From positions 248,001 to 312,000 of the forward strand of contig NZ_CP125652.1 in NCBI RefSeq assembly GCF_030053135.1: 64,000 nt of DNA. The letters run 5' to 3'. Shown here piece after piece: positions 34,562-40,545 of this stretch; positions within the stretch are counted from its first letter, which is position 1, and each line of letters opens with the position of its first letter. The notes under the pieces are model-generated. The model ran no database searches and was not told the origin of the DNA. It worked only from the letters and a program-made list of their open reading frames with translations. Both the position numbers and the translations under genes were made by a program. The stretch comes from Rhizobium sp. BT04. GTDB taxonomy: Bacteria > Pseudomonadota > Alphaproteobacteria > Rhizobiales > Rhizobiaceae.

Positions 34562-35158
34562 ATGGCGAAGGTTCTCGTCCTTTATTATTCGGCTTACGGC
34601 CATATCGAAACCATGGCCTATGCCGTCGCCGAAGGCGCGAAGTCGGCCGGTGCCGAGGTCACCGTGAAGCGCGTTCCGGAACTGGTTCCGGAAGACGTCG
34701 CCAAGGCTTCCTACTACAAGGTCGATCAGGCCGCTCCGATCGCCACCGTCGACGAACTCGCGGATTATGACGCGATCATCGTCGGCGCCGGCACCCGCTT
34801 CGGAACGGTCGCATCGCAGATGCGCAATTTCTGGGATCAGACGGGCGGCCTCTGGTTCGCCGGCAAACTGGTCGGCAAGATCGGTTCGGTGTTCACCTCT
34901 TCGGCTACCCAGCACGGCGGCCAGGAATCGACCATTCTCGGCTTCATCCCCACCTTCCTGCACCAGGGCATGGTCGTTGCCGGCCTTCCCTATGCCTTCC
35001 AGGGCCAGATGGGCACCGAGGAAGTCAAGGGCGGCTCGCCCTATGGCGCCTCCACCATCACCAACGGCGACGGCTCGCGCCAGCCTTCCGAGATCGAGCT
35101 GGAAGGCGCGAAATACCAAGGCGCCCATATCGCCAAGCTTGCTGCCAAGCTCGCTTGA
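34562..35158 (+). CDS. wrbA: NAD(P)H:quinone oxidoreductase WrbA
   Basis: A flavodoxin-like FMN enzyme reducing quinones by two electrons, protecting against redox cycling. At 198 residues it has normal family length. FMN-site segments are [34 protein letters not shown] and [14 protein letters not shown]. The RBS GGAAG sits just before ATG 34562. An inverted repeat GTTGAAC/GTTCAAC lies about 65-105 bases upstream. It is monocistronic, with its own terminator. Confidence 0.95.
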
Positions 35159-35324: not shown

Positions 35325-35612
35325 TGGTGCGGACGGCGGGGGTCGAACCCGCAAAGCCGAGGCCGAGGGATTTTCTTACCAGCTACGGCTTTCGCCGCCG
35401 CCTTCCGGCGTTTGTGGTCTGGACTATACCTTCACCCTAGCTTTGCCTTAGGTGCTGCCCGTCTAGTCTCTACACCTTCCCCTTGCAGGGCTTGGCTCGG
35501 GATTGCCATCTGACAGGTTTCCCCGACTTTGAGCAGTTCTACATCCGGCGTTTCCGCCAGTGCACTCAATTTGCTTTAAGTCCCTTGTGTCTACCGATTC
35601 CACCACGTCCGC
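35325..35612 (-). tRNA. tRNA-Leu(UAA) interrupted by a group I intron
   Basis: The minus strand encodes a class II tRNA in two exons. Exon 1 is 35612-35578 (acceptor GCGGACG, D-arm GGTGGAATCGGTAGACAC, half-anticodon stem AGGGA and loop CTT). Exon 2 is 35374-35325 (loop AAAA, TCCCT, long variable arm, T-arm GGGTTCGACCCCC, acceptor CGTCCGC, A, encoded CCA). Joined, the loop is CUUAAAA with anticodon UAA; the anticodon and acceptor stems are fully paired. The 85-nt product is a normal leucine tRNA. The intron splits the loop after U34, the same site as in cyanobacterial and plastid tRNA-Leu(UAA). Confidence 0.9.
35375..35577 (-). ncRNA. group I self-splicing intron in tRNA-Leu(UAA)
   Basis: A 203-nt insertion between U34 and A35 of the tRNA. 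The upstream exon ends in U, and the intron ends in G (35375), as group I introns require. Core elements can be read: a Q-like block GGCAATCCCGAGCC (about 35494-35507), an R-like block GTGTAGAGACTAGACGGGCA (about 35456-35475), and an S-like block AAGGTATAGTCC (35421-35432). The short peripheral hairpin GGCGGAAACGCC fits P2 or P5-type loops. There is no room for a homing endonuclease. Compact tRNA-intron size and site point to subgroup IC3; that assignment needs folding. Confidence 0.88.
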
Positions 35613-36046
35613 GTGGTTCTTCCTGCTAACAAAGAGAGACGCTATTCTCAACCGATATTCAGGGATTGGGATGCGATTCCGTTTCAAAGTTTGGAAGCCC
35701 TCATCGCTCACGACAATCCGATATTGGGTTGCTTCGAATGTCCAGTTGAATTCGGGCGCAAAACGACGATCCCACATGCTGAGCACGGCCACGACAAGCA
35801 ACGGCGCGTCACGCAGTTGCAAATTGACATTGTTTCTACGCAAGGTCAGGATAGATTGATTGCGAAAAATATTTCATGCAAGTTGATGTAGAAATCTCAG
35901 CATGACTCCTGGGCACTCAAGCTTGTTGAATTTGGTAGACGTTGGGACAGAGTGTCGGCAGGGGTAGTGCTTGCGACTTCTACTGTTGCAATACGTGCAT
36001 TTCACTTTTCATTGTGAACGCCGGGACATGTGGTGACTAGGGCAAA
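35613..36046. other. intergenic stretch between the tRNA and the SARP-type gene
   Basis: About 430 bases, AT-richer than average. I see no gene that survives inspection on either strand. It should contain the tRNA promoter (minus) and the promoter of the regulator gene (plus). Confidence 0.5.
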
Positions 36047-37978
36047 ATGGCTTTTGTTCTGAAGACCTTCGGGAGGTTACACCTCATTGACGAGAATGGC
36101 AGCGCTGTCGCCTTTCCCGAGAAGGGCCTGCTGCTCTTCGCCTATTTGTTCACAACCGATCAAGGGGCGGCGGATCGAACGACCTTGGCTCACTTTCTGT
36201 GGGGCGAAGCCGACAGGGACGTTGCGCTTTCGACTTTGCGCAAGGTGATTTCGAGAATTAAGGCCCGTCAAATCGATCTCGGAGTCAACATCCTTTCATC
36301 TCAGGGCAATATGCTCACCCTCGACCGGGGTTCTCTGTCTTCCGACATTCTGCTGTCGGACAAGGAGGAAGAGGTCGAGCCGTTCTCGCGGCTGAGGCAG
36401 CTTGTGAAGCTGATGAACCAGCCTTTTCTGGGACCGGTTCACAGCCATAGCCGTCAGTTTCAGCGCTGGCTCGCCGAACGTGAAAATTACCATGTCGAGC
36501 TTCTCGCAAATACACTGAGAACGGCGTCGCGATTGGCTCAGTCGCGAGAGGAATCCGAACTGCTGAGGAAGGCTGCGGTGATCCTGTTTCGGACCGAGCC
36601 GAAGGATCCGGAAACGCTGCAATTGCTGATCCGGATATTCAACGCGGAAGAGGAAGTTGAATCTGTTCGGAACTATTTTGAACAGCGGCGCAATTCGAGT
36701 TTGCGGGGCATCGCCGTGCGCACCGGATCCGATGACGGTGACGTAAAATCGCTGCGTCCGCCGTCAGCGCCGTCAAAGGCGAAACTCGAGGCGGCTCTTC
36801 CTCTCGAGCCCGAAGATGTCCGCATTGCAATTCCCCGCCTGGTGCTGCTTCCCCCTAGGAATCAATCGGTTCGGCCGCAAGCCGGTTTCCTCGCCGCATC
36901 TCTGGTGGAGGATATCACGATCGGATTTTGCGTCTTCAACAGCCTGGAGGTCATAGCCCCATATTCGGCGGTTCAAATCGGTCACCACGTGGAGACGCAG
37001 AAGGCCTTCTTTGAACGGCATCGCGTCAACTATATCCTCGACACCCGGATTAGCAGTACAGGCGATGAAGTGACGCTGTTCGCCCAGCTGATCTTTTTCG
37101 ATCAGAATCAAATTGTTTGGGCGGAAAGATTCAGTCTCGATCGTATGGATCTCGCCAGAGACAGGAGAGTTGTTGCCCGGCAGATCGCTCTCTCCGTGTC
37201 CGGCGAAATCGAGCGCCATGAGGCGTTGCGCGAAGATCTGAACCCGGTCGCTTACCATCGATATCTTGTCGGCAGGCGGCACCTGGCGCGGCTGACACTT
37301 CCGAACCTGCGGCGCGCCCGCAAGGAAATGAAAGCCGCGCTAAGCGTAAGCCCCGATTTCGCACCGGCGCTGAGTTCGATGGCGCGGACCTACTCCAAGG
37401 AATGGTTGTTGACGGCCCGAGGCGATATCGATCTTTTGCAATTGGCCGAGACTTTCGCCAAGCAGGCCACCGAGATGCGTTCGGACTTTGCCGACGGCTA
37501 TCGCGAGCTCGGAGTCGCCAAGCTGTTGCAGGGCGCGTTTGATCAAAGCGCCGAAGCAATGGAAGTGGCCGAAAGCCTTGCGCCACACTATGCCGACGTG
37601 ATTGCCGACTATGCGGACACGTTGGTTCATTGTTCGCTCCCCGCCATGGCCTTGCGAAAGATCGAGCGGGCAATCGAGCTGAACCCACTCAGTCCCGATA
37701 CGTATTTCTGGACCGCTGCGGGAGCAAACTATGCCCTCGGCGAATTCGAAGCGTCGCTGGACTATATCGGGCAGATGGCGGATCCCAATCTAGCGGACAG
37801 ACTGTCTGCCGCAAGTTGGGCCATGTTGGGCCATCAGGACAAGGCGCGGATCTTCGTAAGAAGGTTTCGTGAAGGCAATCCGGACTTCGATGTGGACAAG
37901 TGGTTGTCTGCCGTTCCAAGTAAAGAGCAATGGCATAAAGATCTTTATCGTGAAGGCCTGAAGAAAGCTGGATTTTAA
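36047..37978 (+). CDS. SARP-type transcriptional regulator with TPR domain
   Basis: A 643-residue cytosolic regulator. Residues 5-95 form an OmpR-like winged helix of the SARP type: LKTFGRLHLIDENG, GLLLFAYLFTTDQ, LAHFLWGEAD and LSTLRKVISRIK. A helical BTAD-like part follows to about 240. Residues 265-400 resemble the TolB/FlgO-like segment seen in adenylate-cyclase-type TPR regulators (AASLVEDITIGFCVFNSLEV). TPR-like helices fill 405-600. There is no kinase, so activity is probably set by protein or ligand binding. A 72-residue ORF starts 28 bases after its stop and is likely co-transcribed. Targets are unknown. Confidence 0.75.
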   Translation: MAFVLKTFGRLHLIDENGSAVAFPEKGLLLFAYLFTTDQGAADRTTLAHFLWGEADRDVALSTLRKVISRIKARQIDLGVNILSSQGNMLTLDRGSLSSDILLSDKEEEVEPFSRLRQLVKLMNQPFLGPVHSHSRQFQRWLAERENYHVELLANTLRTASRLAQSREESELLRKAAVILFRTEPKDPETLQLLIRIFNAEEEVESVRNYFEQRRNSSLRGIAVRTGSDDGDVKSLRPPSAPSKAKLEAALPLEPEDVRIAIPRLVLLPPRNQSVRPQAGFLAASLVEDITIGFCVFNSLEVIAPYSAVQIGHHVETQKAFFERHRVNYILDTRISSTGDEVTLFAQLIFFDQNQIVWAERFSLDRMDLARDRRVVARQIALSVSGEIERHEALREDLNPVAYHRYLVGRRHLARLTLPNLRRARKEMKAALSVSPDFAPALSSMARTYSKEWLLTARGDIDLLQLAETFAKQATEMRSDFADGYRELGVAKLLQGAFDQSAEAMEVAESLAPHYADVIADYADTLVHCSLPAMALRKIERAIELNPLSPDTYFWTAAGANYALGEFEASLDYIGQMADPNLADRLSAASWAMLGHQDKARIFVRRFREGNPDFDVDKWLSAVPSKEQWHKDLYREGLKKAGF

Positions 37979-38224: not shown

Positions 38225-38584
38225 ACGCCGATAATTTTGGGTGCTACAGCGCCCACGTCGTTCAGACGTGCAAGACGCTGTAGCACTTGATTCCGATCTA
38301 AGAAATTGTGCAGTGGTGCGCGCCGTCGAACATCAATCACGCGCTGCATTGACGTGATCAAAGTGCTTTCTCGGTGCCGATCAAGTGTAGCGGGTGTCAG
38401 CGATAATCTATCGGCCCGGGCTCATACGGGTTCGATCTCCGTCGCCCGTATCACCTTCATAATACCGTTTGAATATGCTTGTATATTGTGGATGAAAGCG
38501 TGTTTTTGCTTGACAACCGCATTTTAGGTGCAAAGGTTGCGCCGCGGCGGTTGAGTAAGTGTTGTCTTTGTGGGGAGTAAGACG
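38225..38584. other. intergenic stretch with nested palindrome
   Basis: About 360 bases without a gene. The left end holds the palindrome 38241-38286; the rest, with an AT-rich part near 38460-38530, probably carries the promoter of the small membrane peptide at 38585. Confidence 0.5.
38241..38286 (+). repeat. nested palindrome, probable terminator or rhizobial repeat
   Basis: Perfect 11-bp outer arms GTGCTACAGCG (38241-38251) and CGCTGTAGCAC (38276-38286) enclose a second hairpin CACGTC-GTTCA-GACGTG (38254-38270). It begins 17 bases after the stop of the 72-aa ORF. No T-run follows. The GTGCTACAGCG sequence is, from memory, a frequent intergenic motif in Rhizobium. Confidence 0.65.
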
Positions 38585-38716
38585 ATGGTTTACGATTGGA
38601 GTGGGGCGAGGGTTCGGCGCATCCGGATCTTCAAGACCAGTGTCGCACTTGTTCTCGGAACTGTGATGGCTGCGATACCACTGTTCTTCTGGGCCGCGCA
38701 GCTGCGCGGTTTCTGA
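38585..38716 (+). CDS. small membrane peptide, 43 aa
   Basis: A short ORF with GGGGAG eight bases upstream of its ATG. The product begins MVYDWSGARVRRIRIFKTSV, a basic stretch, and continues with one hydrophobic helix (VALVLGTVMAAIPLFFWAAQ), ending LRGF. This is the layout of a single-pass membrane peptide with a cytosolic positive N-terminus. It stops 12 bases before the end of the convergent VanZ-like gene. Function unknown. Confidence comes from the RBS and the membrane pattern. Confidence 0.5.
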   Translation: MVYDWSGARVRRIRIFKTSVALVLGTVMAAIPLFFWAAQLRGF

Positions 38717-38728
38717 CCTGAGGGATAA

Positions 38729-39103
38729 TCAGCGTTCTGCGAAGGGAACGGTGTTTGGCGCCTTGCTCTCGCGCCACCTGTTGATGACCCAGCCGGCCAG
38801 CAGCCCGAGGGCGGCGCCCATGGCCTTGACGCCGGCATCATGCAGGCGTGGATGACGCGTCGGCGCAAAATACTGCAAATATTCGATGGCGATCGAGCCG
38901 GCGATCAGCAGCACGGCCACCAATTTCCACTGTTTCGGATAGGCGAGTGCAAAGGCGAGGCCGACAAGAACATAGGCGCCCGCGCGATCGGTATTGACCG
39001 TCGTGACCGTTTCCGGCCGCAGCCCGATCGGCGAGACCGTGACGAAGAGGATGAAGGCGAGCAGCAGCCAGGCGAGCGGTCTTGCGAATTTGAGGATCAT
39101 CAT
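38729..39103 (-). CDS. VanZ-family membrane protein
   Basis: A 124-residue inner-membrane protein with four predicted helices: LAWLLLAFILFVTVSPIGLR, AYVLVGLAFALAYP, LVAVLLIAGSIAIEYLQYF and GAALGLLAGWVI. The conserved VanZ-like spacing is present: SPIGLRPE at the end of helix 1, IEYLQYFAPTRHP and HDAGVKAMGA before the last helix. VanZ itself gives low-level teicoplanin resistance, but most family members have no known role. The gene stands alone. Confidence 0.75.
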   Translation of the reverse strand: MMILKFARPLAWLLLAFILFVTVSPIGLRPETVTTVNTDRAGAYVLVGLAFALAYPKQWKLVAVLLIAGSIAIEYLQYFAPTRHPRLHDAGVKAMGAALGLLAGWVINRWRESKAPNTVPFAER

Positions 39104-39294: not shown

Positions 39295-40545
39295 GTGACG
39301 AGACTTGATGTCGAAAGCGCCGAAGAGGCGATGCGCAGCCTCTTTCCGGCAACGCCGCTGCAGCTCAACGATCATCTCTCGGCCCGCTACGGGGCCGATA
39401 TCTGGCTGAAGCGCGAGGATCTGTCGCCGGTGCGCTCCTATAAGATCCGCGGCGCTTTCAATTTCTTCCGCAAGGCGATCGGGCAGGGGGCCGCCGGCAA
39501 GACCTTCGTCTGCGCCTCGGCCGGCAATCATGCCCAGGGCTTTGCCTTTGTCTGCCGCCATTTCGGCGTGCCGGGCGTCGTCTTCATGCCGGTGACGACG
39601 CCGCAGCAGAAGATCGACAAGACCCGCATGTTCGGCGCCGAATTCATCACCATCCGGCTGTTCGGCGATTTCTTCGACCAGTGCTACCAGGCCGCCCGCG
39701 ACCATGTCGAAGCGGTCGGCGGCGTCATGGTGCCGCCCTTCGATCACGCCGACATCATCGAGGGCCAGGCGACGGTCGCCGCCGAAATCATGCAGCAGCT
39801 GCCGGAAGGAACGGTCCCCGACATGATCGTCCTGCCGGTCGGCGGCGGCGGACTTGCCGCCGGCATCACCGGTTATCTCGACGGCACCGTGCCGAAATCG
39901 GCCTTCGTCTTCACCGAGCCGGCCGGGGCGCCGAGCCTCAGGCGCAGCATCGAGGCGGGCAAGGTAACGACGCTTGGCAAGGTCGACAATTTCGTCGACG
40001 GCGCTGCCGTCGCCCGCATCGGTGACCTGAATTTCGCCGCCCTTCGCGATTTTCCGGCAAGCCAGGTGCAGCTGATGCCGGAGAACGCCATCTGCGTCAC
40101 CATCCAGGAGATGCTGAATGTCGAGGGCGTCGTGCTGGAGCCGGCCGGCGCCCTGTCGCTGACGGCAATTGCCGCGATGGACCGCCAAGCGATCCGCGGC
40201 AAGACCATCGTCGCCGTCGTTTCCGGCGGCAACTTCGATTTCGAGCGCCTGCCTGACGTTAAGGAAAGAGCCATGCGTTACGCAGGGCTGAAGAAATACT
40301 TCATCCTGCGGCTTGCCCAGCGCCCCGGCGCGCTCAGGGATTTCCTCAATCTACTCGGCCCAGACGACGATATCGCCCGCTTCGAATATCTGAAGAAATC
40401 GGCGCGCAACTTCGGCTCGATCCTGATCGGCATCGAAACCAAGGCGCCGGAGAATTTCGCCCGTTTGATCGGAAATTTCGAAGCTGCCGGCATGGGTTAC
40501 GAGGATATCACCGAAAACGAGATCCTCGCCAACCTGATCATTTGA
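39295..40545 (+). CDS. ilvA: threonine dehydratase (threonine ammonia-lyase)
   Basis: PLP-dependent deamination of threonine to 2-oxobutanoate, the first step of isoleucine synthesis. It has 416 residues. The PLP lysine is Lys50 in SYKIRGAFNFF; SAGNHAQG and the phosphate-binding loop VGGGGLAAG are present. The C-terminal 90 residues form one ACT-like domain (YFILRLAQRPGALRDFLNLL), in keeping with isoleucine feedback control. This length matches the shorter single-ACT IlvA rather than the 514-residue E. coli type. The GTG at 39295 is the start. Confidence 0.92.
   Translation: MTRLDVESAEEAMRSLFPATPLQLNDHLSARYGADIWLKREDLSPVRSYKIRGAFNFFRKAIGQGAAGKTFVCASAGNHAQGFAFVCRHFGVPGVVFMPVTTPQQKIDKTRMFGAEFITIRLFGDFFDQCYQAARDHVEAVGGVMVPPFDHADIIEGQATVAAEIMQQLPEGTVPDMIVLPVGGGGLAAGITGYLDGTVPKSAFVFTEPAGAPSLRRSIEAGKVTTLGKVDNFVDGAAVARIGDLNFAALRDFPASQVQLMPENAICVTIQEMLNVEGVVLEPAGALSLTAIAAMDRQAIRGKTIVAVVSGGNFDFERLPDVKERAMRYAGLKKYFILRLAQRPGALRDFLNLLGPDDDIARFEYLKKSARNFGSILIGIETKAPENFARLIGNFEAAGMGYEDITENEILANLII

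Follow-up and report, generated by a model that had tools for sequence, protein, structure and literature searches.

The window, a stretch of 64,000 nucleotides from Rhizobium sp. BT04 that we analysed over its whole length, contains a complete tRNA-Leu(UAA) gene of 288 nt on the minus strand (35325-35612), which an intron splits between U34 and A35. The parts of the gene are these:

35578..35612, minus strand: tRNA-Leu(UAA) exon 1, nucleotides 1-35, last base U34 (..GACTT) (ARAGORN)
35375..35577, minus strand: group I intron of 203 nt, last base G (RF00028 match and covarying structure)
35325..35374, minus strand: tRNA-Leu(UAA) exon 2, 50 nt, starting AAAATCCC and with an encoded CCA at its end (ARAGORN)

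An earlier note, made from the letters of this stretch, had given exactly these gene coordinates and this anatomy. ARAGORN calls no tRNA in the window when introns are disallowed; once they are permitted, the program reports tRNA-Leu(taa) interrupted at position 36 by an intron of 203 nt, and joining of the exons yields the full cloverleaf of a tRNA-Leu(UAA), as the note had said. Its proposal that the insertion after U34 is a group I intron is borne out by Rfam cmscan, in which Intron_gpI (RF00028) matches at 35396-35587 (minus strand) with 61.7 bits against a gathering cut-off of 50 (E 3.2e-13) and is the sole Rfam family above its gathering score in the 64 kb. The U before the 5' splice site and the terminal G that the note had pointed out also hold: the P1 U.G pair (last exon U with an intron G; alignment columns 35 and 49) is present in 28 of 28 related intron genes, and the window's intron ends in G. 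Among these 28 intron-bearing tRNA-Leu genes compensatory double changes occur at 46 of 78 predicted pairs, with the tRNA arms counted in and the pairs taken from a structure program that predicts no pseudoknots. The intron would probably belong to subgroup IC3, and we predict that it self-splices in vivo. TTA codons are scarce, with one in nine reading frames of the window, a point against the reading that we prefer below.

The Rfam search of the whole genome (6,989,060 bases in 7 contigs, completeness 99.99) gave this one group I match. A tRNA-Leu(UAA) pattern allowing at most two mismatches had nine matches in the 6.99 Mb; besides the window gene these were tRNA-Leu(CAA), tRNA-Leu(UAG), five sites without an ARAGORN tRNA and one site on contig C7. 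The note had named a missing covariance match, or a second intact tRNA-Leu(UAA) gene together with no spliced product from this locus, as telling against its reading; the match is present, and no second gene was found among the eight pattern matches examined (all but that on C7), with a pattern that a strongly divergent gene would evade. The same genome also has a broken integrase relative beside an intact tRNA-Lys(UUU) (L240, G000:C6:536172-536987).

Around the split gene, the window holds host genes, remains of an element and a piece of a second, native tRNA gene:

34562..35158, plus strand: wrbA, host gene and left border of the chromosomal slot (TIGR01755, 343 bits; same neighbour at the empty site L208)
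35727..35852, minus strand: C-terminal remnant of a TfuA-like protein of the element (64% over 42 aa by tblastn)
36047..37978, plus strand: element gene for a 643-aa TPR protein (weak TPR matches; tblastn match from 35942 to 37975)
38405..38448, plus strand: decayed 3' half (nucleotides 38-80) of the native intronless tRNA-Leu(UAA), the attR scar (82% identity)
38454..38714, plus strand: native DNA 3' of the tRNA, running on directly from the scar (82.7% to L208 across 272 bp, E 6e-77)
38729..39103, minus strand: host gene (124 aa) that borders the slot on the right (same neighbour in L208)
39295..40545, plus strand: threonine ammonia-lyase gene, host landmark (TIGR02079, 592 bits; in 24 of 25 mapped regions, window counted)

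The native tRNA-Leu(UAA) has thus been cut in the window and not rebuilt. Its scar lies 2.8 kb from the intron-bearing gene, on the opposite strand, and aligns together with the native flank over 321 bp (82%, E 8e-89); the exons of the intron-bearing gene are 84% and 90% identical to the native ones. The 643-aa TPR protein is 83% identical to a 679-aa protein of a complete element in a congener (G045, locus L204), and the block between tRNA and scar is reversed in orientation with respect to that element, as is seen also for the TfuA remnant (blastn block 35727-35834, inverted relative to L204). The TfuA fragment is all that the window retains of a YcaO/TfuA cargo pair. Neither an integrase nor the native 5' half with the left junction was found in the window's stretch, which is best read as the decayed remnant of an integrative element and not as a working member.

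We surveyed 148 genomes of the genus. An uninterrupted tRNA-Leu(UAA) pattern, which covers the anticodon arm, is present in 112 of them (four of the 112 being cut natives) and missing from 36, among them the window's genome. Rfam matches to introns, obtained under strict filters in which weak matches are lost, occur in 26 of the 148 genomes, and tRNA calls place 25 of these in tRNA-Leu(UAA). Fifteen genomes lack both the uninterrupted pattern and a Leu intron; ten of the 15 have some match to the gene, and in eight of those ten ARAGORN calls an intronless tRNA-Leu(UAA). No tRNA-Leu(UAA) match was found in the congeners G103, G104 and G106. Group I introns in tRNA-Arg(CCU), the gene in which the earlier note placed the alphaproteobacterial tRNA introns, also occur in several congeners (L020, L022, L047, L266-L268); that placement was too narrow, as tRNA-Leu(UAA) introns are found in many alphaproteobacteria.

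All 25 intron-bearing regions that were mapped, window counted, fall in one common chromosomal slot, bordered on one side by a Usp gene and wrbA and on the other by the 124-aa gene and the threonine ammonia-lyase gene (the one stretch in which the lyase is not seen, L206, has wrbA and Usp). The empty site L208 holds an intact intronless tRNA-Leu(UAA), and wrbA and/or the lyase gene adjoins the intronless gene in 13 of 13 congeners checked, L208's genome included. The gene does not keep one orientation in the empty slot: in five of these 13 it lies on the wrbA/lyase strand, as in L208, and in eight it is reversed. Four genomes appeared to have both an intact native gene and an intron copy; in each the 'intact' gene proved to be cut in its 3' half and to run into foreign DNA, and a fifth genome (L227) has a cut native gene of the same kind. 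Nine of the 25, with G045 and the window among the nine, retain the native 3' piece, always on the strand opposite the intron-bearing gene. The comparison with tRNA-Leu(UAA) loci of relatives, which the note had put forward as a check, gives an intronless native gene at the same slot, cut open where the element persists. As a side observation, two congeners (G111, G182; L271, L275) have a complete intronless tRNA-Leu(UAA) and, no more than about 20 bp behind it, a second tRNA-Leu 3' half, a pattern that resembles the result of another type of integration.

These data bear on whether the intron came to the window by descent or by transfer, the question that the note had raised. Descent would mean an ancient intron of the native tRNA-Leu(UAA), lost in relatives; many related species do share the arrangement and the slot, so that inheritance within the clade after one event is likely, but the native 3' half is a scar 2.8 kb off on the other strand and the uninterrupted pattern is found in 112 of the 148 genomes, the four cut natives included. 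We consider this account very improbable. Homing or reverse splicing of the intron into the native gene, both known for group I introns in general, is less credible still: the exons that flank the intron are unlike the native ones, and a piece of the native gene persists nearby on the other strand. The native scar and the different exons led us to reject both accounts. The gene of the window is not the native one, and the answer is lateral: the whole interrupted gene, as we read the comparison, arrived on an integrative element whose insertion disrupted the native copy. The presence of one arrangement at the slot in many species suggests a single old integration followed by inheritance within the clade.

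The element itself is retained in five of the 25 mapped regions, each of which has a tyrosine integrase, an opened native gene and a complete intron-bearing copy inside; in these five congeners the host tRNA gene is cut and not rebuilt, and a complete tRNA of that isotype comes with the element. In G045 both ends are visible, in the order native nucleotides 1-67, integrase (a tyrosine integrase of 408 aa, with a PHROG integrase match at E 1e-33), cargo (the TPR protein and the YcaO and TfuA genes, the pair at L204 6412-8327), intron-bearing tRNA in the orientation opposite to the native gene, and native nucleotides 22-85. In the other four regions (L205, L206, L207 and L227) the integrase is present together with the cut native 5' half and, in opposite orientation to it, the intron-bearing tRNA; all four have a MobA/MobL relaxase-like gene near the intron-bearing tRNA, three (L205, L207, L227) have a gene for a VirD4-like coupling protein there, and the four would represent further element types. 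All five integrases match a PHROG integrase family (E 3e-33 to 2e-35); that of L204 has no Pfam match and no PDB match by sequence, and those of L204 and L205 have no NCBIfam match. Anti-phage defence genes are seen among the cargo, namely a Pycsar cyclase with a TIR effector in G187 (L206 7593-9218) and a Thoeris ThsB-like protein in G050 (L205 15143-16105). At the left junction of L206 a 5' anticodon arm AGAGA is combined with a 3' arm TCCCT, and the arms of congeners pair AGAGA with TCTCT or AGGGA with TCCCT; the mixed arms suggest a crossover within the anticodon loop, at a junction where a single point change would look identical.

The reading that we prefer, with a probability of roughly 85% for the explanation as a whole, is that the window's gene is an element-borne replacement whose core is split by the intron, that the integrase was later lost and that the host now lives on the replacement. 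A tyrosine integrase would act on the intronless tRNA-Leu(UAA) of the host and recombine inside its anticodon arm; as the attachment site would fail to restore the gene, the host copy would be destroyed, and the element would bring a complete tRNA-Leu(UAA) of different origin. In this replacement the group I intron between U34 and A35 would fall inside the crossover, at the exact position that we infer for it, so that the integrase core would be present only after RNA splicing and not in the DNA. Lacking the core in its DNA, the replacement would be hidden by the intron from the integrase and would offer no target to its own element or to rivals of the same kind. In the lineage of the window the integrase and the left junction would have been lost later, leaving a replacement gene that serves the host and on which the host probably depends. 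The sequences themselves show the intron and exons, the native scar, the complete elements of congeners and the recurring association of integrase, broken native gene and intron copy; splicing in the cell, the host's need for the tRNA, the exact crossover and the shielding go beyond them.

We searched for the integrase beyond the genus without regard to introns (E <= 1e-60) in a class sample of 385 genomes and an order sample of 397, two samples that overlap; 14 and 22 genomes, respectively, had a match, giving 37 distinct loci. At 25 of the 37 the tRNA upstream of the integrase is complete and of a different type (Met, Arg, Phe, Gln, Trp or Lys), and an intron-bearing tRNA was called at none of these 25 rebuilt-tRNA loci, which were read to about 1.5 kb past the integrase and in some cases less. 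Seven loci have an unrebuilt tRNA-Leu(UAA) 5' half (L229, L231, L233, L234, L239, L245 and L247; a degenerate 3' half is kept in L229 and L245, and the fragment in L233 is atypical), and at all seven an intron-bearing tRNA-Leu(UAA) follows the integrase, at a distance of 46-232 bp in six and about 2 kb in L233 (seen as L331). The link between integrase, broken gene and intron copy is thus a repeated one. Five further loci are partial or ambiguous (L237, L242, L244, L258, L260). In the integrase tree the integrases with a Leu(UAA) target cluster (3 changes against a shuffled mean of 16.7), and extension of the survey by 33 and 5 genomes gave three new integrase matches, all with tRNA-Met upstream.

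Named genomes were also searched for the intron-bearing gene, and among the matches listed an integrase homologue stands at 12 of 119 loci. At nine of the 11 such integrase loci examined a tRNA-Leu half is cut just after GACTTAAAA, just past the anticodon loop; at L124 and L127 no tRNA-Leu half was found. G327 and G513 show both junctions; the other junction carries the native 3' half, which in G513 lies on another contig. A link of the system to phages was considered and dropped, as integrase searches of a phage collection and of viral contigs gave almost nothing: there were no matches in the phage collection, and among the viral contigs none for the Rhizobium integrase query and one for a Caulobacterales query. 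Relatives of the integrase occur on eight plasmid records; of the four of these examined, none has a Leu target or an intron-bearing tRNA.

Introns are also found apart from elements, and replacements apart from introns. Group I matches occur in 31 of the 385 class-sample genomes (34 matches, four of them without a locus, two of those four left out). By the reading of exon 1, tRNA-Leu(UAA) introns are present at at least 15 class-sample loci besides the window; five of the 15 adjoin an integrase of this family, one (L326) has a cut native half and no integrase, and nine have neither in the stretches fetched. A replacement tRNA-Leu(UAA) at L348 (G014) is intronless, has an altered anticodon stem and is accompanied by no match to this integrase family. 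A viral contig (L370 4353-4437) combines a cut tRNA-Leu(CAA) and an integrase relative with a complete copy of tRNA-Leu(CAA), which is intronless and differs by one change in the anticodon loop. The replacement at L237 is perhaps an intronless tRNA-Leu(UAG), next to an inverted and ambiguous target fragment. A strict rule that every element replacement has an intron accordingly fails, on L348 and L370 and seemingly on L237. The replacements at L348 and L370 differ from their targets in the anticodon arm, which fits an escape from the integrase by an intron or by another change; a replacement would have to escape in one of these ways.

Matches to the intron-bearing gene extend to plasmids and viral contigs. 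An intron-bearing tRNA-Leu(UAA) is matched by 1283 plasmid records, mostly from Enterobacterales; in 1236 of the records the match spans 80% or more of the query. The plasmid gene (L002 6001-6299, L003 5001-5298, L004 1111-1410) is about 73% identical to that of the window in the best matches, and its exon type is that of alphaproteobacterial intron copies such as L055, L090 and L125; in L002 and L003 its neighbourhood includes an AAA ATPase gene and aac(3)-IId. The intron-bearing tRNA-Leu pattern is matched by 37 viral contigs (L167-L203), many with more tRNA genes nearby.

Two views of the intron's role can be set against these observations. It may be a passenger, the element having captured its tRNA-Leu(UAA) from a lineage that normally has the intron, with no protection involved. 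This would suit the many intron copies without sign of an element, the existence of intronless replacements and the standing of tRNA-Leu(UAA) as the classic host of this intron (as described in PMC4033280). Yet seven of seven Leu(UAA) replacements have the intron, against the uninterrupted pattern in 112 of the 148 genus genomes (four of them cut natives), and the intronless replacements L348 and L370 differ from their targets in the anticodon arm. We give the passenger view a substantial chance, though one that falls short of an even one. That elements use the intron as a shield, by which the core is split in the DNA and restored in the RNA so that an essential gene is safe from the element's own integrase, has, in our view, a chance only slightly below even.

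If the shield exists, it would give a selective reason for the spread of bacterial tRNA-Leu(UAA) introns without homing endonucleases, and it would tie a host to the element's tRNA even once the element decays. To our knowledge, the way in which the small group I introns of bacterial tRNAs spread and persist is unsettled. Here part of them travel on integrative elements within replacement tRNA genes, with a benefit that would be concrete and easy to test. The window offers a clear case, in which a ribozyme-split tRNA is apparently all that the host has left after the element's decay. The locus also joins the literature on tRNA-dependent lysogeny with that on disrupted tRNA genes that guard against integration, which we met in papers on archaea and on tRNA evolution.

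In the open-licence literature that we searched, we found no description of a replacement tRNA with a group I intron, and several systems come near. In Caldiarchaeum a tRNA-Thr locus contains a tRNA 5' fragment, a recombinase gene and an intron-bearing complete tRNA, and Sugahara and others propose that the intron may prevent further invasion (Sugahara 2012, PMC3293823); the sequence of fragment, recombinase and intron-bearing complete tRNA is like ours, whereas that case, as the available part of the paper describes it, is one archaeal locus with archaeal tRNA introns and an extra intron at 24/25. Randau and Soll are cited in PMC4390854 for disrupted tRNA genes as protection. Prophages of S. 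meliloti share the rhizobial host and the replacement of an inactivated tRNA by the element's isoacceptor (PMC11476347), but the word intron is absent from that paper's main text as available, and the replacements described here are intron-bearing. With the tRNA-Leu(UAA) intron of cyanobacteria and plastids (PMC4476775, PMC4033280), the window shares the gene and the intron class, a likeness by description; that intron is described in those sources as ancestral, and the present one would have been moved laterally by an element.

The closest known system is tRNA-dependent lysogeny, in which an integrase with a core of 8-10 bp disrupts a tRNA gene whose isotype the phage then provides (Guerrero-Bustamante and Hatfull 2024, PMC10865867). 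A tyrosine integrase, a short common core in the tRNA, a host tRNA that is not rebuilt and a supply of the same isotype are common to both. As far as the available text of PMC10865867 goes, that system is described in actinobacteriophages, including mycobacteriophages, and 'intron' appears solely in a reference title; the present elements are alphaproteobacterial, some have conjugation genes, and the core of their replacement is split by a group I intron. The elements of the congeners, as we interpret them, vary tRNA-dependent lysogeny by an intron-bearing replacement.
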